64,000 nucleotides of DNA from NCBI RefSeq assembly GCF_004912275.1, contig NZ_STGY01000086.1:1-64000 (forward strand), read 5' to 3'. Shown piece by piece: positions 12,940-21,161 of this stretch (the first letter of the stretch is position 1; each line of letters begins with the position of its first letter). This DNA is from Glycomyces buryatensis. GTDB lineage: Bacteria > Actinomycetota > Actinomycetes > Mycobacteriales > Micromonosporaceae. The position numbers were made by a program, and so were the translations under genes. The notes below the pieces were generated by a model, which saw nothing but the letters and a program-made list of their open reading frames with translations, did not search any database and was not told the origin of the DNA.

Positions 12940-13605
12940 TCAGGGGGCGGCCGGGAGGTTCCGGTCGTTCGCGGCGTAGAAGGACAGGCAGAGTCCGGTG
13001 CACAGGTACGCCCATGCACCGATCGAGAACACGGGCAGCAGCCCGGGTATGAAGGCGGTGATGGCGATGACCAGTGCGGTCGTCGCGATGAGCAGCAGCG
13101 GGGCGCCGGGGAATCGCACCAGGAAGGCCCAGGCCAGGCGTATGCACTGCGCGCGCCGCAGGTCGTAATGGGCGTCCATCGTCAATGCGAGCACCAGGTG
13201 CGCGAGGCACACGGCGGCCGCCGCGATGAGCGCCCAGTCGAGCCATGCCGGACCGGACTGTCCGCCCAGTGCGACGAGGCTCACGCCCAGGCACGCGAGG
13301 GCGGCGGCGGACGGGGCGGCGAGGAGGTTGGCGCCGACGAAGCGCTGGCACCACTGGGTGGCGAAGGTCCGCACCAGCCGCTGGCTGTCGCCCCGCAGCC
13401 GGGTCCGGCTGCACGAGGTGGCGGCGGCCAGCGCCGGGGCCCAGCCGAAGAGGAGCCCGCCCGCCAGGGAGAACGCGATCACCAGCAGGTTCAGCAGGCC
13501 GATGAATGCGAAGGCGTCGGCCCATCCGTACCAGCGCTCGACCCGCGCGCCGCCGCGGGCGGAGCGGTCCGGCGTCGGTTGGCGAGCGCTTGCAGCGATA
13601 GTCAT
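12940..13605 (-). CDS. DUF624 membrane protein (YesV/YesL-like)
   Basis: This 221-residue integral membrane protein of the YesL/YesV family has five to six hydrophobic segments from about residue 27 to 200. Such proteins routinely accompany LplA/B/C-type importers, but their role is unknown; an accessory or assembly role in transport is assumed. The open frame extends to 13692, but the ATG at 13603-13605 gives a compact N-terminus. The Shine-Dalgarno is weak. It is the first gene of the rhamnogalacturonan operon, behind a clear promoter and operator. Confidence 0.8.
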   Translation of the reverse strand: MTIAASARQPTPDRSARGGARVERWYGWADAFAFIGLLNLLVIAFSLAGGLLFGWAPALAAATSCSRTRLRGDSQRLVRTFATQWCQRFVGANLLAAPSAAALACLGVSLVALGGQSGPAWLDWALIAAAAVCLAHLVLALTMDAHYDLRRAQCIRLAWAFLVRFPGAPLLLIATTALVIAITAFIPGLLPVFSIGAWAYLCTGLCLSFYAANDRNLPAAP

Positions 13606-13715
13606 ACGGTGTCCAGCGTCATGCGTACTCCCACATCTCCATTGATGCGACGGGGCCACGCTTCCGTCGGCCGCGCATCTGCGGTGCCACATGACGGAAG
13701 CACGGATCTCATCTG

Positions 13716-13735
13716 CGATTGAAAGGATTCAATCG
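13716..13735 (-). promoter_or_regulatory. Dyad operator of the rhamnogalacturonan operon
   Basis: Perfect palindrome CGATTGAA-AGGA-TTCAATCG lying just downstream of the -10 box, over the expected transcription start. A repressor bound here would block initiation. No LacI, GntR or similar gene lies next to the operon, so the regulator must be encoded elsewhere. Confidence 0.75.
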
Positions 13736-13743
13736 TGAGGGAA

Positions 13744-13772
13744 ACAATAGTGAACGATCAATATCGCGTCAA
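13744..13772 (-). promoter_or_regulatory. Promoter of the rhamnogalacturonan operon
   Basis: -35 TTGACG (13767-13772) and -10 TATTGT (13744-13749) with a 17-bp spacer on the minus strand. It is followed directly by the dyad at 13716-13735 and drives the seven minus-strand genes from 13605 to 5370. Confidence 0.75.
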
Positions 13773-14514
13773 CCGGGGCAGGTCAGATTTTATGAAAGGT
13801 TGATTGGGCGGGTGCCCCCTACGCAGGGGTTCGGCCGCCCGACCTCGCAGTTCTTCGGCCTCGAAGGGCCGCGCTGGCCGGCTCCGAGGGCGGCTCGCGG
13901 GCGGGTCGTGACGCTGCGTGACGGACCCCGGGTCCTCGGATCGCGTCAGCCAAGGGGCGGGTCCGACGTCACACGCCGACGATGGGCCGGGATCCGTCGG
14001 GGCGGATGAGGGTGGTGTAGGGTGGACTAGGCCCGCGGAAGTGGAAATCCGCGGCCGCACTGGAATCTTGATCGCTATATGCGACGGATGCGTGCTTATG
14101 GCACGCCATCACTCGGAATTCATCGAGTTTCTAACGCCTCCGTTCACAAGGCGGAGCAACGTTTCCTTACACTTCTACGAATCAGGCAATCATTTCTTCA
14201 GCTTCACCAAACACCGCCCCGCAGAGCAGAATCCTCTGGAGGCAGGCCGTCGAGGGCCTTCACGCCGCTACGCTCGACGGGGAATTCGCCGGATTCGTCG
14301 CTGTTTCAGGACCCCTTCACACACTTCACGGACCGCACGCGCAGATGCTCGGTGTCTACCGATCACTTGAAGACGCGTCATCCGTTCTCGAACTCGAGCT
14401 CTCCTTCGCAAACGATGCGCCGGAGCTGCTCAACACCCCATAGTTTTCCGCGTCGGAACATCGGCACGGACAAGGGATTGCCTCGGCGATCCATCAACAA
14501 ACAGGAGTAACACA
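13773..14514. other. Intergenic region with likely long 5' leader of the cold-shock gene
   Basis: There is no gene I can support in these 740 bases. Base composition drops in GC between about 14070 and 14460. The frame 14079-14510 is open but Arg/Ser rich and shows no family pattern. An actinobacterial -10-like TAGGGT occurs near 14020. A long structured leader is typical of cspA-type mRNAs, so much of 14040-14514 could be untranslated RNA; this is inference. Confidence 0.4.
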
Positions 14515-14718
14515 ATGGCAACTGGCACCGTCAAATGGTTCAACGGCGACAAGGGCTTCGGCTTTATCGCCCCCGACGACGGGTCCGCCGACCTGTTCGC
14601 GCACTTCTCCGCCATCCAGGGCTCGGGTCGCCGTGACCTGGAGGAGAACCAGCAGGTCGAGTTCGACGTCGAGCAGGGCCAGAAGGGCCCGCAGGCCTCG
14701 AACATTCGAGTCCTCTAA
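14515..14718 (+). CDS. cspA: Cold-shock domain protein CspA
   Basis: This 67-residue cold-shock protein is a single OB-fold RNA/DNA chaperone. Both nucleic-acid binding motifs are intact: RNP1 KGFGFIAP (residues about 16-23) and RNP2 [15 protein letters not shown] precedes the ATG by 8 nt. It stands alone behind a long upstream region and in front of two strong hairpins. The product should bind single-stranded RNA and relieve secondary structure during cold or growth transitions. The length equals the family norm. Confidence 0.97.
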
Positions 14719-14724
14719 TAAGAC

Positions 14725-14769
14725 CGACCACTCCGGAACTGCGGTTCGCCCGTAGGACCGGAGTGGTCG
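14725..14769 (+). terminator. Hairpin after cspA
   Basis: 12-bp perfect arms (14725-14736 and 14758-14769) around a 21-nt loop, starting 6 nt after the cspA stop. It lacks a T-run and acts with the following terminator, perhaps as an RNA-stabilising 3' structure. Confidence 0.6.
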
Positions 14770-14774
14770 ACACG

Positions 14775-14804
14775 AAGGCCAGGGGAACTGATTCCCCTGG
14801 CCTT
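14775..14804 (+). terminator. Intrinsic terminator of cspA
   Basis: 13-bp perfect arms (14775-14787 and 14792-14804) with a CTGA loop; the stem ends in CCTTT followed by GTC. Strong rho-independent form. Confidence 0.85.
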
Positions 14805-14911
14805 TGTCATGCCTTCAGCAAGGATTCACCCTGATCGCCAGACCCTTACAGCCTTCCGGCTCCCCAGGCCCGCTATAGCCGCGCGGCGGTTCGGCTCCGG
14901 GGAGCCGTGGC

Positions 14912-15553
14912 TCAGGACGCCGGTCGGAGCGTGACCCAGGTGAACGGCTGGATGAGGCCGGCCGGGGTCAGGTGCTCCTCGGAGCGGGTGGTGACGAGGC
15001 TGAAGTGCGGGGCGAACAGCTCGGCCAGTTCGCTTGCGCTGTAACGCACCACAGGGAGACCGGAGCAGTGGGTCGGGCCGTGGGCGTCGAAGGTGGCGAT
15101 GATGACGTGGCCGTCCCCGGCTATGCCGGAGCGGAGGACTCGCAGGTAGGACTCGCGCTCCTCCGCTTCGATGAGGAAGTGGAATACGGCGCGGTCGTGC
15201 CAGAGGTCGAAGCGGCGTTCGGGCGTCCAGTCGAAGATGTCCCGATGCAGCCAGTGCACGCGTTCGGCGGCCGCGCCGAGGCGGGATCGGGCGTCCTCCA
15301 TGGCCACCTTGGACACATCGAGGACCGAGACGTCGGTGAACCCGCGGTCGAGCAGGTGATCGACGACCACCGAGGCTCCGCCGCCCAGGTCGATGATCGA
15401 CGCGTCACGGCCGATGTCCAGGGCGTCCAGCAGTTCGAGCGTGATGGTCGGGGTCGCCTGAAACCAGCTGACGCCGTCCTCGCCCTTGGTGTCGTAGACC
15501 GTGTTCCAGTGGGCGGCACGGTCTCCGGGTGTCGTCGGCCGATTCATGCGCAT
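14912..15553 (-). CDS. Class I SAM-dependent methyltransferase of the permease/TusA/radical SAM operon
   Basis: This 213-residue Rossmann methyltransferase has motif I at about residue 47 (IIDLGGGAS), an acidic ribose-binding position near VLDVSK, and the distinctive stretch DLWHDRAVFHFL near residue 105. The substrate cannot be told from sequence. The start at 15553 follows AGGAAGG and overlaps the radical SAM gene by 10 nt; the open frame upstream is antisense-like and rejected. Being the last of four tightly coupled minus-strand genes with a permease, a TusA-like protein and a TusA-radical SAM fusion suggests it methylates a product of that pathway. Confidence 0.85.
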   Translation of the reverse strand: MRMNRPTTPGDRAAHWNTVYDTKGEDGVSWFQATPTITLELLDALDIGRDASIIDLGGGASVVVDHLLDRGFTDVSVLDVSKVAMEDARSRLGAAAERVHWLHRDIFDWTPERRFDLWHDRAVFHFLIEAEERESYLRVLRSGIAGDGHVIIATFDAHGPTHCSGLPVVRYSASELAELFAPHFSLVTTRSEEHLTPAGLIQPFTWVTLRPAS

Positions 15554-16557
15554 CGGAATGCCTTCCTGGTGTTGTCCTGCTGCTCCGCGGTGACCTGGAG
15601 GATACGGTCCATCTCCGCGATCGCGGCGCGGATCGGGAGCGGTGCGTCGGTGACCCGCAGGGCCGGGTCGGTGATGCCGACCGGGTGCCACCAGATGCCG
15701 TCTACGGCCACCGTGGGCTCGGGATACAGGTCGTCCCGGGTCAGCACCACGCCGTCGTCGGCGAAGCCCTCCCGGGCGATGCGGCGGATGATCTGGTCTT
15801 CGGGCGGAACGCCTTCGGTGTCGAGCAGTTCGCGCAGCGCGGCCACCTCCTCGGCGTCGGCGGCGTCGATGGTGGCGGCGATTCTGACCCGGAAGCCCAG
15901 CGACCGGGCCAGGGCTATCCCGGCGCGGGCGCGGTCGTAGGAGCCCGCGCCTCGGTGGCGGTCGTGCAGTTCCGGGGTGGCCGAGTCCAGGGAAATCTGC
16001 AGCGTGACCCGTTCGCGGTCCAGCGCTTCCAGGGTGCGGCGCCGATTGCCGCGGTGGAACACCATGCCGTTGGTGAGCACGGTGACCGGGACGTGTTCGA
16101 TCGCCGCGTCAATGAGTTCGCCGAGCTCCGGGTGCAGGAACGGCTCGCCGCCGGTGATGATCACCTCTGCGCCGCCGCCTGAGACGAACTCCGCCACCGC
16201 CGCCCGGACCAGTTCGACCGGCAGTTGCCGGGCGCTCGCGGCGGGGGAGGACTCCGCGCAGCAGTAGTCGCAGGCGAGATTGCAGTTGAAGTTCGAGTAC
16301 AGCCACAGCCGGGTGCCGAGCTTCGGCGGGTCGGGCTCGACCTCCACCGCGCCCTTCCTGACCTGGAGCGGTCCGACCAGGGCATTGCCGGTGAGCACGC
16401 ACCAGGCCGCCAGGTCCTCCGGCACCGACGGGGCGCCGCCGCGCACCTCCAGGATCTCCTCGGCGTTCAGCTGCTCCACCGCCGCATGCAGCTTGACGAG
16501 CAGGCCGCTGCCGAAGTCGGCTCCGTCCGCGTTCAGGACCACATCGGATCGCACCAT
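15544..16557 (-). CDS. Radical SAM protein with N-terminal TusA-like domain
   Basis: This 337-residue protein has two parts. Residues 1-65 follow the TusA/SirA fold pattern (LLVKLHAAVEQLNAEEILEV then EDLAAWCVLTGNAL), but the catalytic Cys position is Phe (DFGSG). Residues about 85-260 form a radical SAM core with the cluster motif CNLACDYC (Cys92, 96, 99) and GGEP at about 136. The C-terminus (260-337) has Cys336 but no clear second cluster motif. It should generate a 5'-deoxyadenosyl radical; its substrate is unknown. It lies 2 nt after the free-standing TusA-like gene and overlaps the methyltransferase. The fusion is unusual and suggests the TusA-like domain docks a sulfur carrier or partner. 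Confidence 0.85.
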   Translation of the reverse strand: MVRSDVVLNADGADFGSGLLVKLHAAVEQLNAEEILEVRGGAPSVPEDLAAWCVLTGNALVGPLQVRKGAVEVEPDPPKLGTRLWLYSNFNCNLACDYCCAESSPAASARQLPVELVRAAVAEFVSGGGAEVIITGGEPFLHPELGELIDAAIEHVPVTVLTNGMVFHRGNRRRTLEALDRERVTLQISLDSATPELHDRHRGAGSYDRARAGIALARSLGFRVRIAATIDAADAEEVAALRELLDTEGVPPEDQIIRRIAREGFADDGVVLTRDDLYPEPTVAVDGIWWHPVGITDPALRVTDAPLPIRAAIAEMDRILQVTAEQQDNTRKAFRCA

Positions 16558-16559
16558 GG

Positions 16560-16808
16560 TCAACGTCCCCTTCGTACGAAGTAGCTGGACTCGGACCCAT
16601 TGCGGGCCACCAGTTCCAGAGGGTGACCGGCGAGCTCGCACCAGGCGGGCAGGTCGACCTCCACCGACGGGGCCTGGCTGCGGATCTCGAGGATCGCTCC
16701 GACCGCGATGCCGTTCAGCGCCCGCCGGATGGCGATGAGCAGTCCGCCGTTGCAGTCGAGCGTGCCGCCGTCGCACACCGCTGCCGGAACCGGTGCCGCC
16801 GAGGTCAT
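16560..16808 (-). CDS. TusA-like sulfurtransferase family protein, degenerate active site
   Basis: This 82-residue protein aligns by eye with TusA/SirA sulfur-carrier proteins: RRALNGIAVGAILEI matches the helix and strand after the active site, and VDLPAWCELAGHPL matches the conserved C-terminal motif. The usual Cys-Pro-x-Pro is replaced by Cys-Asn-Gly-Gly, so a Cys remains but both prolines are gone. Its ATG overlaps the permease stop (ATGA). The same position is Phe in the TusA-like part of the next gene. A sulfur or selenium carrier role is plausible but unproven. Confidence 0.75.
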   Translation of the reverse strand: MTSAAPVPAAVCDGGTLDCNGGLLIAIRRALNGIAVGAILEIRSQAPSVEVDLPAWCELAGHPLELVARNGSESSYFVRRGR

Positions 16809-17896
16809 GACAGCACCACCAGCAGGCCCGCGCCCGCCAGGCCCAGCGCGAACACGGACGCGCCGGTCGCGGCGATCACCGCGGCCGGGAAGGCCCGCCG
16901 GATCATGAGCATCGACGGCAGCGACAGCGCCGGGAGCGTGAGGATCAGGGCTCCGACCGGGCCCAGCGCGACCCCGGCCAGGGCCAATCCCTGGATGATC
17001 GGAATCTCGCCGGCGGTGGGGATGACGAACAGCGTCCCGACCACCGCGAACAGGAGCACGGCGAGCACGCCCCACTCGGATGCACCCGCCGGGAACAGCC
17101 AGCCGCGCAGCCCGCCCAGCAGCAGCACGATGACCACGTACTCGGGGATCAGGACCACCGACAGGCGGCCCAGCGTCTTGAAGAACCGACCGAGCGCGTC
17201 GCGCACACTCACGGGCTCATCGGAGGCGGCGGAGTCGTCCTCCGGCAGAAGATCCGGGTCGGAGACGGCCTTGCGGGCGCCGGCCAGCCTGGCGACCAGC
17301 AATGTCACGCCGAATACCAGCAGCACTCCGGTGACGACGCGGACGGTGACGAACTGCCAGGGCAGCACCACCGCCATGAACACCAGCACCACCGGATTGA
17401 GGACCGGATTGCCCAGCCAGAACGCCAGCGCCGAGGACATTGGCACGCCCCGCTTCCTGACGCTGGCCGCGACCGGTGCCGCGCAGCAGGTGCACATCAT
17501 CGACGTCGTGGACAACGCACCGCCGGCCGCCGTGCTCACTGCCGCACCGCGGTGCCGCGCAAAAAGTTTCAACAGCCTACGGCGCGGCAGGAAGGCCTCC
17601 ACCGACGCGGCCAGCAGCAGGCCGGCCACCATGGCGGGCCAGATCGCCAGGCCGTAGGCGACGGCATAGTCCACCGCCGCCCGCCAGGAGGGGGCCGGCG
17701 GGGCCGACTCCTCACCGTTCACGATCGACGTTCCAACGGTGCCGCTGTCGATCACGGCGGGAAGTCGCTCCGTATAGGGCAGCCATTTGGCCCAGGCGAG
17801 GGCTGCCACGGCGACCGCGGCGAAGCCGATCGTTCCAAGCAACATCGCACGACGTGAGGGGGTGGCCGCTGGGCTGGCGGTCTCGGTCGTCGCCAT
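16805..17896 (-). CDS. UPF0718/ArsP-like permease
   Basis: This 363-residue polytopic membrane protein has about eight to nine spans. The conserved motif MMCTCCAAPVAASVRKRG near residue 133, with Cys-Thr-Cys-Cys-Ala-Ala-Pro, is characteristic of the UPF0718 (DUF318) permeases, which include the organoarsenical exporter ArsP; a second GEIPIIQG-type motif lies near residue 300. I chose the ATG at 17894-17896, which follows AAAGGA. First gene of the four-gene unit, it would export or import the small thiol-, selenium- or metalloid-containing compound handled by the downstream enzymes; the substrate is inference. Confidence 0.85.
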   Translation of the reverse strand: MATTETASPAATPSRRAMLLGTIGFAAVAVAALAWAKWLPYTERLPAVIDSGTVGTSIVNGEESAPPAPSWRAAVDYAVAYGLAIWPAMVAGLLLAASVEAFLPRRRLLKLFARHRGAAVSTAAGGALSTTSMMCTCCAAPVAASVRKRGVPMSSALAFWLGNPVLNPVVLVFMAVVLPWQFVTVRVVTGVLLVFGVTLLVARLAGARKAVSDPDLLPEDDSAASDEPVSVRDALGRFFKTLGRLSVVLIPEYVVIVLLLGGLRGWLFPAGASEWGVLAVLLFAVVGTLFVIPTAGEIPIIQGLALAGVALGPVGALILTLPALSLPSMLMIRRAFPAAVIAATGASVFALGLAGAGLLVVLS

Positions 17897-17963
17897 CACT
17901 GCATTCCTTTCGACGACTACGGGGGGCATGTTTTCGAGTGCACCACGACCGGCCCGCGCCGTT

Positions 17964-17981
17964 CCTTACAAATCGTGAAAC
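17964..17981 (-). promoter_or_regulatory. Shared 18-nt upstream element, permease operon copy
   Basis: Read towards the permease gene this is GTTTCACGATTTGTAAGG. A copy with only two mismatches faces the opposite gene at 18062-18079. Both sit 35-68 nt upstream of a first gene, so they are either operators of one regulator or the -35 part of promoters for an alternative (ECF-type) sigma factor. Confidence 0.65.
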
Positions 17982-18061
17982 TCGGCAGGTCGAGCGCATG
18001 GTGAGGCGGACTAATGCGCCATGTGTTCGCTCCCGTCCCAATGCGCCGAGCCCCCGCCGCG

Positions 18062-18079
18062 GTTTCGTGATTTGTAAGG
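18062..18079 (+). promoter_or_regulatory. Shared 18-nt upstream element, DoxD operon copy
   Basis: GTTTCGTGATTTGTAAGG, differing from the divergent copy at 17964-17981 only at positions 6 and 7 (AC against GT), located 34 nt before the DoxD-like start. The shared element implies coordinate control of the two divergent units. Confidence 0.65.
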
Positions 18080-18113
18080 TCCGCGGGCGCCCTATCCATG
18101 CTGTACTCGGGAA

Positions 18114-18635
18114 ATGAAGGCAGCAACCCCAATCGCGCCGTCGCGGCTGAACGTCTGGCTCATCGCCGTCGTCCGCGTCGGCGTGGCGCTGATGTGGATC
18201 GACAATGTCTCCTGGAAGGTCCCGCCGAACTTCGGCGAGGGAACTTCGAGAGGGCTGTACCGCTGGACGCTCTACGGCGTCGAATACGAGGTGCTCGCCC
18301 CCTGGGCCTGGTTCGTGGAGACCGTCGTCGTCCCGAACTTCCTCCTCTTCGGATGGCTCGTCCTCGCCATGGAGGCCTCCCTCGGCGCGTTCCTGCTCAT
18401 TGGACTGTTCACCAGGGCCTTCGCGCTGCTCGGGGTCGTCCAGAGTCTCGCGATCACCTTCTCGGTGCTCAACGCCCCGCACGAGTGGTACTGGGCCTAC
18501 CTGCTCATGATCCTCATCCACCTGCTGCTCTTCGCGGTCGCGGCCGGGCGCTACGGCGGCATGGACGGCATCCTCAGGCCACTGTGGATACATCGTAATG
18601 GTCGCGTCTACCGACTCATGAAGGCGGCGTCATGA
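18114..18635 (+). CDS. DoxD/DoxX-like integral membrane protein
   Basis: This 173-residue protein has four predicted spans (about 13-31, 66-90, 95-125, 128-145) and a conserved N-terminus (VVRVGVALMWIDNVSWKVPP) resembling DoxD, the large subunit of thiosulfate:quinone oxidoreductase, and DoxX relatives. DoxD-like proteins feed electrons from sulfur compounds to quinone in archaea; many bacterial relatives have unknown roles. The ATG at 18114 has only a weak GGGAA site. It overlaps the next gene by 4 nt and is divergent from the TusA/radical SAM unit, with which it shares an upstream element. A link to sulfur redox chemistry is inference. Confidence 0.75.
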   Translation: MKAATPIAPSRLNVWLIAVVRVGVALMWIDNVSWKVPPNFGEGTSRGLYRWTLYGVEYEVLAPWAWFVETVVVPNFLLFGWLVLAMEASLGAFLLIGLFTRAFALLGVVQSLAITFSVLNAPHEWYWAYLLMILIHLLLFAVAAGRYGGMDGILRPLWIHRNGRVYRLMKAAS

Positions 18636-19009
18636 CCCACATCCGCACGCTCGACCGCGCCGCGACCGTCCTCGGGCTCGCCTCGATCGCCAGCGTCGTG
18701 TTCGCCTGGGAGGGCCTCGACAAGTTCCGGTTCATGACCATCGGCGGCGTCGCCATCGCCGTGGCCCTGGGCCTCGGCGCCCTCGCCGTGGCCGCCGGCC
18801 TCCTCGGCATGCGCCTCCTCGCGCTGGCGGCCGGACTCGGCTTCGCCGTCGCGGCGCTCCTCCAGCTCATCGCCACCGCCTCCGGCGACGACTGGCTCGG
18901 TGCCGACCTCAGCGCCATGTCGTTCTGGATCGGACTCGCCATCGGCCTCCTCATCGTCGGGACCGCACCGCGAACCGCCGCAAGGGAAACCGCACCCGAG
19001 AGTCCTTGA
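18632..19009 (+). CDS. Small four-span membrane protein of unknown function
   Basis: I do not recognise a named family. The 125-residue product has four hydrophobic segments (about 12-28, 33-57, 60-82, 94-112) and short charged loops (DKFRF near residue 33), consistent with an inner-membrane protein. Its ATG overlaps the DoxD-like stop (ATGA), so it is translationally coupled and probably part of the same complex. The stop at 19007-19009 is followed in the same frame by a remnant of a sigma-factor C-terminus. Confidence 0.7.
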   Translation: MTHIRTLDRAATVLGLASIASVVFAWEGLDKFRFMTIGGVAIAVALGLGALAVAAGLLGMRLLALAAGLGFAVAALLQLIATASGDDWLGADLSAMSFWIGLAIGLLIVGTAPRTAARETAPESP

Positions 19010-19138
19010 GATCGGGCTCAGCGCACGCAGGAAGCCTCCTCTCGAATCGAGGTCACGGGCGACCGGATCGGGCGGCTCTGGGCCGTCCGCAACCCCGAGA
19101 AGCTCCGCTCCTGGATGACAGACACCCCTAGGGCGTGA
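19010..19138 (+). pseudogene. Remnant of an ECF sigma factor C-terminus
   Basis: Translated in the frame ending at the TGA 19136-19138, the sequence reads IEVTGDRIGRLWAVRNPEKL followed by RSW. That is the characteristic end of SigJ/ECF41-type sigma factors with a SnoaL-like tail. No start, sigma-2 or sigma-4 region is present, so this is the last 30-40 codons of a deleted gene. It directly follows the DoxD pair; an intact ECF41 gene occurs elsewhere at 47830. Confidence 0.6.
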
Positions 19139-19187
19139 CGTGCGTCCACGGCAGGCGCCGAGCGTGGCCGGTGCGAACCGCATGTGC

Positions 19188-19199
19188 TACGGTCGCCGC
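19188..19199 (+). promoter_or_regulatory. Extended -10 promoter of the aro leader
   Basis: TG-C-TACGGT (-10 at 19188-19193, TG at 19185-19186) places the expected transcription start at about 19200, exactly on the leader peptide ATG, so the transcript would be leaderless. No good -35 box is visible. Confidence 0.5.
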
Positions 19200-19271
19200 A
19201 TGTCTACGACAGTTCGTTGGTATCAGCGCTTTACGCTGGCTCCGGGTGGAGCCCGTAGTCGCACGCGCTGA
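19200..19271 (+). CDS. Aromatic amino acid leader peptide of DAHP synthase
   Basis: A 23-codon ORF reads MSTTVRWYQRF and ends LAPGGARSRTR. Consecutive Trp-Tyr and a nearby Phe are the three end products of the aromatic pathway, as expected for a ribosome-stalling attenuator in front of the first shikimate-pathway enzyme. There is no Shine-Dalgarno; a -10 box 6 nt upstream implies leaderless translation. The segment 19238-19248 within the peptide frame can pair with 19281-19291, an antiterminator-like arrangement, and a terminator follows at 19295-19320. Confidence 0.8.
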   Translation: MSTTVRWYQRFTLAPGGARSRTR

Positions 19272-19291
19272 CTGAACGAACACCCGGAGCC
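19238..19291 (+). promoter_or_regulatory. Alternative RNA stems of the aro attenuator
   Basis: GGCTCCGGGTG (19238-19248) pairs perfectly with CACCCGGAGCC (19281-19291), and can instead fold locally as GGCTCC-GGGT-GGAGCC (19238-19253). The two folds are mutually exclusive and are placed so that a ribosome paused at the Trp-Tyr or Phe codons would influence the choice. Confidence 0.65.
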
Positions 19292-19294
19292 AAC

Positions 19295-19320
19295 AAGGCA
19301 GAGACGACCGTCTCTGCCTT
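19295..19320 (+). terminator. Attenuator terminator before DAHP synthase
   Basis: 12-bp perfect arms (19295-19306 and 19309-19320) with a 2-nt loop; the stem ends CCTT followed by T. It lies between the leader peptide and aroG, so it must be read through for aroG expression. Confidence 0.75.
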
Positions 19321-19405
19321 TCGTCGTGAAGGCGGGCCGGCACCGGGGTGGAAATCCACGAACGGACGCGGACCCGCTTCAGCCAGAAGATGGGAATCCC
19401 GCGAA

Positions 19406-20485
19406 ATGACCACGCCCGCCGAGCACACGCCGCAGACCAACGACCTCCGTGTCCTCGGATTCCAGCCCCTCGTACCCCCGGACGTGCTGCTCGCCGAGCT
19501 TCCGCTCGGCCCCGACCGCGCCGCCCTGGTGAACCGCAGCCGCGACGAGGTCCGCGATGTCCTGGCCGGCGAGGACGACCGCCTGCTCCTGGTCGTCGGC
19601 CCCTGTTCCGTGCACGACCCGGCCGCCGCCAAGGACTACGCGCAGCGCCTCGCCGCGGCCGTCGCCTCGCTCGCAGACGACCTGTGCGTGGTCATGCGCG
19701 TCTACTTTGAGAAGCCCCGCACCACCCTCGGCTGGAAGGGCCTGATCAACGACCCGCACCTGAACGGCACCCACGACGTCGAGCTGGGCCTCCGGCTCGC
19801 CCGCCAGGTCCTGCTCGACGTACTCGACACCGGCCTGCCCGTCGGCTGCGAGTTCCTGGAACCGACGAGTCCGCAGCACATCGCCGACGCCGTCTCCTGG
19901 GGCGCCATCGGCGCGCGCACGACCGAAAGCCAGGTCCACCGCCAGCTCGCCTCGGGTCTGTCGATGCCGGTCGGATTCAAGAACGCCACCGACGGCGACC
20001 TGACGTCCGCCATCGACGGCTGCCGCGCCGCGGCCGGCGACCACGTCTTCTTCGGCATCGACGGGGAAGGCCGCGCGTCGATCGTCTCGACCAGCGGCAA
20101 CCCCGACTGCCATCTCATCCTCCGCGGCGGCCGCGGAGGCCCCAACTACAGCCCGGAGGACATCCGCGACGCGCTGGCCCTCCTCTCCAAGCACGGCATG
20201 CCCGAGCGCCTGGTCGTCGACGCCAGCCACGCCAACAGCGGCAAGGACCACGTCCGCCAGGCCGAGGTCGTCAGCGAGGTCGCGACCCGGATCGCCGAGG
20301 GCGAGCAGGGCATTGCGGGCCTGATGATCGAGAGCTTCCTCGCCGAGGGCCGCCAGGAACCGGGGCCGCTGGAGACCCTGAAGTACGGCCAGAGCGTCAC
20401 CGACGCCTGCGTCGGCTGGGAGCGCACCGAGCAGCTCCTGGGCGAGCTGGCCGCCGCGGTCCGCCACCGCCGCGCCTCCCAATGA
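19406..20485 (+). CDS. aroG: 3-deoxy-7-phosphoheptulonate (DAHP) synthase, type I
   Basis: This 359-residue cytosolic enzyme joins phosphoenolpyruvate and erythrose 4-phosphate, the first step of the shikimate pathway. The AroG/F/H-type pattern is complete: GPCSVHD near residue 65, RVYFEKPRTTLGWKGLINDP near 98-118, CEFLEP near 150, and DASHANSGK near 275. The N-terminal 40 residues are variable as in the feedback-regulated class. It is preceded by a Trp/Tyr/Phe leader peptide and terminator, so transcription is probably attenuated by aromatic aminoacyl-tRNA supply. It is convergent with, and only 1 nt from, the methyltransferase gene at 20487. Confidence 0.96.
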   Translation: MTTPAEHTPQTNDLRVLGFQPLVPPDVLLAELPLGPDRAALVNRSRDEVRDVLAGEDDRLLLVVGPCSVHDPAAAKDYAQRLAAAVASLADDLCVVMRVYFEKPRTTLGWKGLINDPHLNGTHDVELGLRLARQVLLDVLDTGLPVGCEFLEPTSPQHIADAVSWGAIGARTTESQVHRQLASGLSMPVGFKNATDGDLTSAIDGCRAAAGDHVFFGIDGEGRASIVSTSGNPDCHLILRGGRGGPNYSPEDIRDALALLSKHGMPERLVVDASHANSGKDHVRQAEVVSEVATRIAEGEQGIAGLMIESFLAEGRQEPGPLETLKYGQSVTDACVGWERTEQLLGELAAAVRHRRASQ

Positions 20486-20486
20486 G

Positions 20487-21161
20487 CTAAGGCAGCGGGC
20501 GGCGGGCGCTGAACGCGAGGACGAACGGGATCGCGTGCTCGCGGGGTTCGCGGACGCGGGCCAACGCGAGCCCCGCATCGAGCACGCCGTTGAGCAGATC
20601 GCTGAGTGGCAGGTGCCGCATGCCGAGCTGCCGGCGAACGCCGCCGCTGCTCCACCAGGGCGCATCCTCGTGCCAGCCGGCCTCCCGATAGACCGGGTGG
20701 ATGATCCGGGCCCCATCGTCGCGATTCTGGACGTGGGGCCCGTTGAAGCACGGGTGGACGCCGTAGAACACGAACAGCCCGCCGGGCCGCAGCACCCGGG
20801 CCGTCTCCCGCATCACCCGGCCCCAGTCGTCCACATCGGTTGAGGCCCAGAGGGAGACAACGGTCGGGAAGGTCGCGTCGGCGAAGGGGAGGGCCGCCGC
20901 GTCGGCTTGGAGTACCGCCCGGTCTCGCCGGGACGCGATGCGGAGCTGGTCGCCGGAGCGGTCCAGGCCGACCGGAGTTCGGCCGGTGGAGCGGATCGCG
21001 TCGAAGTATTGGCCGGTGCCGCAACCGAGGTCGAGGCACCAGCCCTCCCCGCGCCCGAGGAGTTCGGTCAGTGCGCCCCGGTTCTCCTTGGCGGCCTTGG
21101 CGTTGTAGTCCTCGTACCACGTCGCCAGCCCGTCATACCGGGGCTTCGTGCTTTCGGTCAT
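20487..21161 (-). CDS. Class I SAM-dependent methyltransferase
   Basis: This 224-residue methyltransferase of the UbiE/type 11 group has motif I CLDLGCGTGQY near residue 42, an acidic strand-2 end in PVGLDRSGDQL, and ALPFADATFPTVVSLWAST as motif post-II to IV. The C-terminus has MRHLPLSDLLNG, found in a family acting on small molecules. The start follows GGAGGCG. It appears to be a single gene with no pathway context, so the substrate is unknown. No terminator separates it from the convergent aroG. Confidence 0.85.
   Translation of the reverse strand: MTESTKPRYDGLATWYEDYNAKAAKENRGALTELLGRGEGWCLDLGCGTGQYFDAIRSTGRTPVGLDRSGDQLRIASRRDRAVLQADAAALPFADATFPTVVSLWASTDVDDWGRVMRETARVLRPGGLFVFYGVHPCFNGPHVQNRDDGARIIHPVYREAGWHEDAPWWSSGGVRRQLGMRHLPLSDLLNGVLDAGLALARVREPREHAIPFVLAFSARRPLP

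Follow-up and report, generated by a model that had tools for sequence, protein, structure and literature searches.

A TusA-radical SAM cassette of the Rv1678-Rv1681 type in Glycomyces buryatensis and its likely tie to methylthioxylose-type gene clusters

The stretch of DNA analyzed here (the window) comprises the first 64,000 nucleotides of contig NZ_STGY01000086.1 of Glycomyces buryatensis. It carries a minus-strand operon, running from 17896 to 14912, in which the gene for an ArsP_1/UPF0718 permease is followed by those for a free TusA-like protein, a radical S-adenosylmethionine (SAM) protein with an N-terminal TusA-like domain (rSAM), and a class I methyltransferase (MT); a unit coding for DoxD-like and associated membrane proteins diverges from it. 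An initial annotation, made from the sequence alone, had described four tightly coupled genes, and each of them is recognized by Pfam or NCBIfam profiles: ATGA overlaps join the permease to the TusA gene and the rSAM to the MT gene, and a gap of 2 bp separates the TusA and rSAM genes. The features of the locus are as follows.

14912..15547, minus strand: class I SAM-dependent MT (the cassette MT of types B and C, see below); Pfam Methyltransf_12/25 above cut-off, PF08242 35.7 bits versus 30
15544..16557, minus strand: rSAM, Rv1681 (MoeX) family, carrying a TusA-like domain at its N terminus; NF049973 404.6 bits versus 380, PF04055 85.0 versus 29.5
15547..15558, minus strand: C-terminal FRCA tail of the rSAM with penultimate cysteine C336, from an alignment of 24 homologs
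16258..16284, minus strand: radical SAM cluster motif CNLACDYCC, from alignments of rSAM homologs
16348..16557, minus strand: TusA-like domain of the rSAM, about residues 1 to 70; PF01206 20.9 bits (E 3.3e-4), below the cut-off of 28.6; β-α-β-α-β-β in the AlphaFold2 model
16560..16808, minus strand: free TusA-like carrier; PF01206 30.9 bits versus a cut-off of 28.6, profile match to TusA 3lvj in the PDB at 2.3e-5
16805..17896, minus strand: UPF0718/ArsP_1-type permease with a CTCC motif in alignment; PF03773 93.2 bits versus a cut-off of 32.3
17961..17980, minus strand: motif TTTCACGATTTGTAAGGAAC 5' of the permease operon, from pattern and matrix scans
18063..18082, plus strand: motif TTTCGTGATTTGTAAGGTCC 5' of the DoxD operon, from pattern and matrix scans
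18114..18635, plus strand: DoxD-like membrane protein, corresponding to the N-terminal portion of Rv1678-type proteins; PF04173 29.2 bits versus a cut-off of 22.7
18632..19009, plus strand: C-terminal membrane domain of the Rv1678 family as a separate open reading frame (ORF); NF049986 101.1 bits versus a cut-off of 50

The rSAM aligns with the full length of the NF049973 profile (positions 1 to 326 of 326) and passes its curated full-length cut-off. Its cluster motif is of the CxxxCxxC form (CNLACDYC), and C92, C96, and C99 are invariant among 24 homologs, for which we chose the start codons. The noncluster cysteine C336 is likewise present in 24 of 24, with a tail of the form FxCA in 22. The AlphaFold2 model has a mean confidence (pLDDT) of 84.8, falling below 50 in the C-terminal tail. 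The element order predicted for the N-terminal region is that of TusA; the proposed fusion to a second TusA-like domain is thus upheld by the modeled fold but falls short of the PF01206 cut-off. Fold searches with the rSAM model pointed to no specific function among the listed matches. In the free TusA-like protein, C12, C19, and C57 are invariant across six homologs, and the cysteine region reads CNGG, without the prolines of the CPxP form that we take to be typical, the cysteine itself being kept in six of six; the protein reaches 23 bits against the sulfurtransferase TusA equivalog NF001423, below the cut-off of 78. Neither of two efflux families tested recognized the permease above its cut-off (SaoE, NF040736, 46.1 versus 325 bits; SO_0444 Cu/Zn efflux, NF033936, 26.4 versus 300). 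The MT gene has a second ATG at 15553 as an alternative start, and its C161 (in CSGLPVVRY) is the one cysteine invariant across seven aligned homologs. Its structure model (pLDDT 84.9) resembles generic class I MTs, halide MT and TPMT among them, and no specific function emerged among the matches listed. The DoxD-like protein scores 16.4 bits against the large subunit of thiosulfate:quinone oxidoreductase (NF041179), short of the cut-off of 300. The ORF at 18632-19009, absent from the initial annotation, overlaps the DoxD-like gene by 4 bp, and in locus L053 both membrane parts form a single protein (NF049986, with DoxD detected by a custom profile). The divergent unit is, as read from its sequence, a split Rv1678.

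Since the rSAM matches NF049973 and the second membrane ORF matches NF049986, the locus is, by family assignment, a variant (type B) of the known but uncharacterized Rv1678-Rv1681 cassette and not an orphan set. The titles, abstracts, and few passages of the open-licence literature that we covered contain no functional study of this cassette. The claim that no characterized pathway has this composition therefore stands as far as those titles and abstracts go, and is to be amended in that the rSAM and the DoxD unit belong to the Rv1681 and Rv1678 families. The rSAM family is rare: it is found above the cut-off in 10 of 296 genomes of the class, with two more at 347-351 bits. At E<=1e-60 the rSAM was recovered from 11 of 200 genomes of the family, including 5 of the 22 that belong to the window's genus, and from 13 of 396 in a sample of the phylum, distant relatives included. 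We surveyed 41 rSAM loci, some of them on short contigs, counting as neighbors the genes within 10 kb of the rSAM; L012 and L013, which encode different rSAM proteins (29-32% identity), were dropped before counting, as were the short loci L014-L043, which either repeat later loci or likewise encode different rSAM proteins. The genes do recur together, as had been proposed, with the permease at 5 of these loci, the free TusA at 6, the MT at 8, and DoxD at 28. The association goes beyond chance, because the TusA subfamily occurs among the 296 class genomes only in rSAM carriers: at E<=1e-12 it is present in three, namely, the genome of the window and two in which the subfamily is represented by the domain fused to the rSAM.

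Three settings of the rSAM can be distinguished. Type A combines it with FadE16, found near 18 of the 41 rSAMs, and with a protein resembling substrate-binding proteins (SBPs) that on inspection of a few sequences has no evident signal peptide; in the one type A locus tested (L047), FadE16 (NF049984, 655.5 bits), the SBP-like protein (NF049985, 493.9), and the rSAM (NF049973, 494.5) all pass their cut-offs. Type B, with permease, TusA, TusA-rSAM, and MT, is that of the window, which is itself among the 5 loci with the permease and the 6 with the free TusA. Type C (L053, L054, L138, and L139) has a TusA-rSAM with a cysteine in the fused domain and, in some cases, an MT and an ATP-binding cassette (ABC) importer; the importer SBPs of L138 and L139 match TIGR04553, "putative selenate," at 306.6 and 309.7 bits (cut-off 250), and the one importer permease tested, that of L139, matches PhnE. 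Types A and B both occur within the genus of the window, to which L004 (genome G441) and L005 (G450) also belong. The rSAM of the window is 86% identical to that of L003, labeled as another genus (a label that may be wrong), and 45-46% identical to those of the same-genus type A genomes G314 and G453, which suggests that the cassette spread by horizontal exchange. More distant rSAM relatives include L141-L145, with an N-terminal fusion to a calcineurin-like metallophosphoesterase (by Pfam in L144 and by inspection in the others), and L146-L150, which are short and have DoxD nearby. We also observed that the metallophosphoesterase-rSAM gene of L145 adjoins TIGR04282-like and MTAP-like genes and that one genome (G330; L133, L134, and L135) has three full rSAM copies, in type A settings, and one partial copy.

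The cysteines of the TusA copies differ between the types. At the position of C19, the free TusA has cysteine in six of six proteins, and the fused domain of type B has phenylalanine in five of five, with the WC pair kept; in type C the fused domain itself has cysteine there in four of four, the second cysteine being missing. None of the 15 type A rSAMs has a cysteine at this position, most of them beginning within or after that stretch with the start codons chosen. A picture of one such cysteine per locus has an exception, because L006 carries a second, partial TusA-like piece 5' of its rSAM. This pattern suggests that the carrier function may have moved from the fused to the free protein, with the fused domain perhaps retained for docking.

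The upstream element that the initial annotation had seen as common to the permease operon and the DoxD unit proved to be two inverted copies, one with a mismatch, of a 20-bp motif, TTTCRCGnnTTGTAAGGWMC, lying between the operons; its arms at 17964-17981 and 18062-18079 are 89% complementary and 80 nt apart. Similar sites precede DoxD or permease genes in L004, L005, L046, L047, L048, and L050, and in the L004 genome, where these genes lie on different contigs, the motif is found at both. The two copies in the window are the only sites in their genome with at most one mismatch; among its four sites with three mismatches, one lies 5' of an operon on contig 14 encoding an MtxS-type protein (see below), and a reversed control pattern gave three matches. 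Across seven whole genomes, all eight sites with at most two mismatches lie at DoxD, permease, or MtxS promoters (one genome has no site, and the control gave two). A matrix built from 12 site strings representing 13 DoxD and permease sites (the site at L005 6601 being assigned by hand) was used to scan both strands of 63 loci totaling 1,001,051 bases. At 18.9 bits or more it returned 28 matches, comprising the 13 training sites (10 DoxD and 3 permease) and 15 promoters of DUF2064-MtxS genes that were outside the training set; the best stray match scored 18.5 bits, and a loose 13-bit threshold gave 50 matches versus 23 in mononucleotide shuffles. In the genome of the window, the two training sites score 33.7 and 31.6 bits, and the MtxS operon, outside the training set, 25.3 bits. 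The window operons thus share a candidate regulatory site with the MtxS operon of their own genome, as judged from these pattern and matrix scores, and this is the basis on which we speak of a methylthioxylose (MTX)-type regulon. Far from standing apart, the set is linked by promoters and neighborhoods to MTX-type genes.

The MTX-type clusters encode a family 2 glycosyltransferase (GT2) of the polyprenyl-sugar synthase kind (MtxS type), a DUF2064 protein, a GT-C glycosyltransferase (MtxT type), a galE-type epimerase, and MTAP, which in L069 passes PRK07823 (323.5 bits, cut-off 306). In Mycobacterium tuberculosis, MTX-phospho-decaprenol is the product of MtxS (Rv0539), and the transfer of MTX to lipoarabinomannan (LAM) is the task of MtxT (Rv0541c) (PMC8780516). 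On contig 14 of the genome of the window, a different contig from that of the cassette, galE, MtxT, a kinase, and a response regulator are followed by the motif, a DUF2064-MtxS fusion, and MTAP. The order in L099 (MTAP, galE, two others, MtxS, DUF2064, and MtxT on the opposite strand) fits what we take to be the order of Rv0535-Rv0541c in M. tuberculosis. Some loci show physical linkage to the cassette: 10 of the 41 rSAM loci have MtxS, DUF2064, MtxT, or MTAP within 10 kb, and 8 have two or more; among the 30 flanked by 5 kb or more of sequence on both sides, the numbers are 8 and 6. By simple arithmetic, about 0.2 of 41 would be expected at a random place in a 5-Mb genome. The count leaves out galE, and L145, although it has MTX-like genes (DUF2064 at 88 bits), falls below the thresholds used. 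In L140, the genes for FadE16, SBP, rSAM, galE, MtxS, and DUF2064 stand in one row, and in both type A genomes of the window's genus, the cassette adjoins an MTX-type cluster. In G019 and G082, MTX-type genes lie 11-20 kb from the rSAM, and in G296 about 11 kb separate MtxT from a DoxD gene that bears the motif and is not linked to the rSAM.

The clusters also offer a candidate for the protein that reads the motif. Thirty MTX-type loci score above 200 bits for MtxS; in 15 of these a response regulator of one subfamily (430 bits or more) is adjacent, and 15 have the motif (18.9 bits or more). The two coincide in 14, leaving one locus with the regulator and no motif and one with the motif and no regulator (Fisher 2.9e-6, kinship among the loci ignored). 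Five of the loci later scored had themselves supplied the profile, and the 430-bit line was drawn after the scores had been seen; a cut at 220 bits instead places the regulator in 21 loci, with a P value of 0.014, kinship again ignored. Since regulator and motif coincide, the response regulator of the MTX cluster is likely to be the protein that binds the motif.

Several further MTX-type clusters (L092-L096, L100, L101, L103-L105, L107, and L108) carry an extra MT with a DGNIGIGG motif, mostly together with a cytochrome-b/molybdopterin oxidoreductase near DUF2064 and MtxS. We considered whether this pair stands in place of the rSAM cassette. In nine MTX-type loci examined from genomes without the rSAM, the MT is present in all nine and the oxidoreductase in eight, versus 15 loci with neither and 3 with both among 18 from rSAM genomes (L135, from an rSAM genome, L102, and L149, cut by contig ends, were left out; L131 and L132 lie near the end of the sequence covered, and a genome search found no such MT in either genome). 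Genome-wide, the MT is found in 11 of 29 rSAM genomes versus 18 of 28 without the rSAM, and in G298, G300, and G304 it adjoins MtxS although the rSAM is present. Its occurrence in rSAM genomes weakens the idea of module swapping, of which at most a tendency is left.

On the basis of the shared promoter motif and the clustering, the membership of the cassette in a methylthio-sugar type of pathway appears likely. We favor, with a probability of roughly 55%, a reading in which the window cassette serves a 5-deoxy-5-methylthio-pentose (MTX-type) pathway in a supply role, as a feeder or partner module. Gene content, motif, clustering, and the TusA cysteine pattern were computed; the regulator, every chemical step, and the methylthio-pentose product we infer. 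A 5'-substituted adenosine could plausibly be converted into a 5-substituted pentose bound to glycan by the succession of MTAP, the nucleotidyltransferase-like DUF2064, the epimerase, MtxS, and MtxT, and an rSAM with sulfur-carrier domains together with an MT is what the making of such an adenosine from SAM and sulfur would need. In the pathway that we envisage, the regulator of the MTX cluster would switch on the permease, DoxD, and MtxS operons together, and the permease and DoxD membrane proteins would manage a soft compound of the sulfur type as well as its redox state. The free TusA might then carry the sulfur as a cysteine persulfide and dock with the TusA-like domain of the rSAM, which would generate a 5'-deoxyadenosyl radical and join C5' to the sulfur delivered by TusA, perhaps via the invariant C-terminal cysteine. 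The MT could cap the resulting thiol to yield 5'-methylthioadenosine or an analog, from which MTAP, the DUF2064 nucleotidyltransferase-like domain, the epimerase, MtxS, and MtxT would lead to a lipid-linked and then a glycan-bound thiosugar. The joining of C5' to carrier-bound sulfur, taken by itself, we hold only tentatively, giving it about one chance in four. In type A, we conjecture that an already methylated sulfur compound might be handled by the SBP-like protein and FadE16.

A number of observations weigh against this supply role. The carrier and methylation steps cannot apply to type A, because it lacks the TusA cysteine and the MT. Cells normally make methylthioadenosine anyway, so its synthesis de novo may be redundant. 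In fold searches, the rSAM model is matched by peptide maturases, viperin, BlsE, EpeE, and HydE alike, and its chemistry is therefore not fixed by the predicted fold. Within 10 kb, 31 of the 41 rSAM loci, that of the window included and some of them short, have no MtxS, DUF2064, MtxT, or MTAP, and the matrix scan found no motif 5' of the operons of the type B loci L003, L006, and L007. In the other direction, MtxT above 400 bits is present in 9 of 34 genomes lacking the rSAM (55 genomes were searched); since MTX-type genes occur without the rSAM, at least some of the products that such clusters make do not require the cassette. The naming of actinobacterial clusters after MtxS and MtxT itself depends on family type, the legend in PMC8780516, and an assumed gene order, and is by analogy. 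Two statements in the literature speak for the supply reading: MTX has been called unique to the mannose-capped LAM (ManLAM) of the M. tuberculosis complex (PMC10675199), as has the MoeX gene to that complex (PMC4202705). In G003, G031, G049, and G066, which have the same taxonomic order and no rSAM, MtxT- and MtxS-like genes score like those of the rSAM-bearing G082. If these four genomes are mycobacteria, the distribution of MTX would follow that of the rSAM cassette and not that of MtxS and MtxT. A methylthio-pentose has reportedly also been found in the LAM of Mycobacterium kansasii, which would weaken this argument from uniqueness.

The main rival to sulfur supply is a tailoring role, in which the rSAM epimerizes, oxidizes, or rearranges a finished methylthio-pentose, whether free, nucleotide linked, or lipid linked, and the other genes provide accessory redox or transport functions. 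We give it between one chance in four and one in five. The motif and the clustering apply to it equally, the sequence and fold relatives BlsE, DesII, EpeE, and viperin act on sugars or nucleotides or epimerize, C336 could serve as the hydrogen atom donor of an epimerase, and a sulfoxide form (MSX) of MTX exists (PMC8531672); the type A flavoprotein tested matches SfnB (94.1 bits) and DszC (79.8 bits), both far below cut-off. It would nevertheless place an epimerase beside the galE-type enzyme that MTX-type clusters already possess with or without the rSAM, and it suggests no obvious task for the cysteine-bearing TusA and the MT found in types B and C. Neither sequence nor fold discriminates between sulfur adenosylation and such tailoring. 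A more doubtful alternative is that the MT and the ArsP-like permease neutralize and export a soft chalcogen or metalloid, the sugar genes being coregulated through a common sulfur or redox stress signal. The ArsP_1 match of the permease (93.2 bits) with its weak similarity to SaoE (46.1 of 325), the relationship of the MT to halide MT (3lcc, 2.6e-8) and TehB (4.2e-5), and the match of the type C importer SBPs to TIGR04553 (309.7 and 306.6; cut-off 250) would all suit it. Detoxification sits poorly, however, with the finding that in eight genomes scanned close motif matches lie only at cassette and MtxS units, with the lack of a permease or MT of this kind in type A, and with the neighborhoods (1.5 kb on each side) of 10 permease homologs outside the cassette (10 of 296 genomes), which have no consistent metal or arsenic genes.

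The same chemistry might instead start from imported selenium and give a methylseleno-pentose, which we consider unlikely. The matches of both type C importers to TIGR04553 are what first brings selenium to mind, along with the Rv1680-like SBP of L047, for which TIGR04553 is the next best model (84.3 bits versus a cut-off of 250), and a neighbor in L146 weakly similar to a YciW-related (seleno)protein (34.1 of 310); the name of TIGR04553 is itself only putative. SelD (TIGR00476, cut-off 125) is above the cut-off in 15 of 31 rSAM genomes but neither in the genome of the window (best 62.5 bits) nor in the type C importer genomes G423 and G379, and its absence above the cut-off from the window's own genome disfavors a selenophosphate route. 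The initial annotation had proposed radical chemistry plus methylation on a sulfur, selenium, or metalloid compound; the sulfur-centered version is still the best guess, while arsenic (47.8 of 300 bits to ArsS) and selenophosphate have lost ground. Molybdopterin synthesis, to which the old gene name MoeX alludes, can be set aside as highly improbable: the annotation is repeated in PMC4202705 and the rSAM is partly similar to MoaA, but its 57.2 bits do not approach the MoaA cut-off of 284.05, and among the annotated neighbors, which are not all of them, no gene for synthesis of the molybdenum cofactor was recognized adjoining the cassette.

The supply reading can be carried further, to a second, SAM-only route to sulfur sugars, which we put forward as a speculative extension with perhaps one chance in five. 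Skeleton and methyl group would both derive from SAM and the sulfur from sulfane sulfur via a TusA persulfide; three exchangeable sulfur-feeding modules (FadE16/SBP-like, permease/TusA/MT, and ABC importer/Cys-TusA/MT) would serve one radical core, under a promoter motif common with the MTX pathway. Were this route real, the orphan locus Rv1678-Rv1681 would become part of MTX cap biosynthesis. That would connect two matters between which we found no link in the titles, abstracts, and few passages of the open-licence literature covered. One is the MTX cap, described as the hallmark of LAM from M. tuberculosis (PMC8531672); the other is the Rv1681 protein, which has been reported as a marker of tuberculosis in urine (PMC4202705). 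More generally, the motif and the clustering seen among actinobacteria would assign the Rv1678-Rv1681 family to a concrete pathway for the first time, point to a candidate regulator, and make the harmless Glycomyces available as a test organism.

Two RNA-level features flank the cassette. An Rfam search of 13500-20500 had a sole match to E 0.5, a cspA-type thermoregulator RNA at 14344-14772 on the plus strand (RF01766, 58.3 bits, gathering threshold 78, E 4e-13) overlapping a cold-shock-like gene at 14515-14718; the divergent region has no match to any RNA family. The plus strand at 19201-19330 has the look of a leader-peptide attenuator (fold z -4.2): a short ORF containing W, Y, and F codons (MSTTVRWYQRF...) comes first, then a pair of strong hairpins and a short run of T, and, 3' of these, at 19406, what we take to be a DAHP-synthase-like gene.

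Among the closest known systems is the Rv1678-Rv1681 cassette, sharing the rSAM family (404.6 of 380 bits) and the membrane family (101.1 of 50); it differs in having FadE16 and the SBP-like protein where the window has the permease, free TusA, and MT, whereas the window has its Rv1678 in two ORFs and an rSAM that retains the full TusA-like domain. With MTX cap synthesis (MtxS Rv0539 and MtxT Rv0541c), the cassette shares the promoter motif, the neighborhood in 10 of 41 loci, and a cluster in its own genome; MTAP, galE, and DUF2064 are presumably neighbors of MtxS and MtxT in M. tuberculosis as well. The cassette genes lie outside the MTX steps published in the legend of PMC8780516. The window's succession of a permease and a TusA-like carrier is reminiscent of the YeeE/YedE-TusA pairs as we know them, and its free copy belongs by profile to the family of TusA/YedF carriers, with a conserved cysteine; unlike those, the permease is of the ArsP_1/UPF0718 type, CNGG replaces CPxP, and this TusA subfamily was found in the class sample only alongside the cassette rSAM.

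A chemical parallel is arsenosugar synthesis (ArsM, ArsS, and TIGR04282/TIGR04283), which likewise combines an MT, a radical SAM enzyme, DUF2064/GT2-type proteins, and a nucleoside phosphorylase. The likeness has its limits: two DUF2064 proteins score 107.7 and 107.6 bits to TIGR04282, short of the cut-off of 134, and in place of arsenic genes the cassette encodes TusA and DoxD proteins. Membership of the rSAM in the ArsS family (TIGR04167) was rejected at 47.8 bits versus a cut-off of 300, as was membership in the adenosyl-hopene transferase family HpnH (TIGR03470) at 58.1 versus 225.05; the ArsS analogy is still useful. Adenosylation of arsenic by a radical SAM enzyme is known from arsenosugar synthesis (PMC12159101), and in PDB entry 5few, HydE is seen with S-adenosyl-L-cysteine as the final product. 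If the chemistry of the cassette rSAM is indeed the formation of a C5'-S bond with protein-bound sulfur, it would be a natural sulfur counterpart to the adenosylation of arsenic by ArsS.

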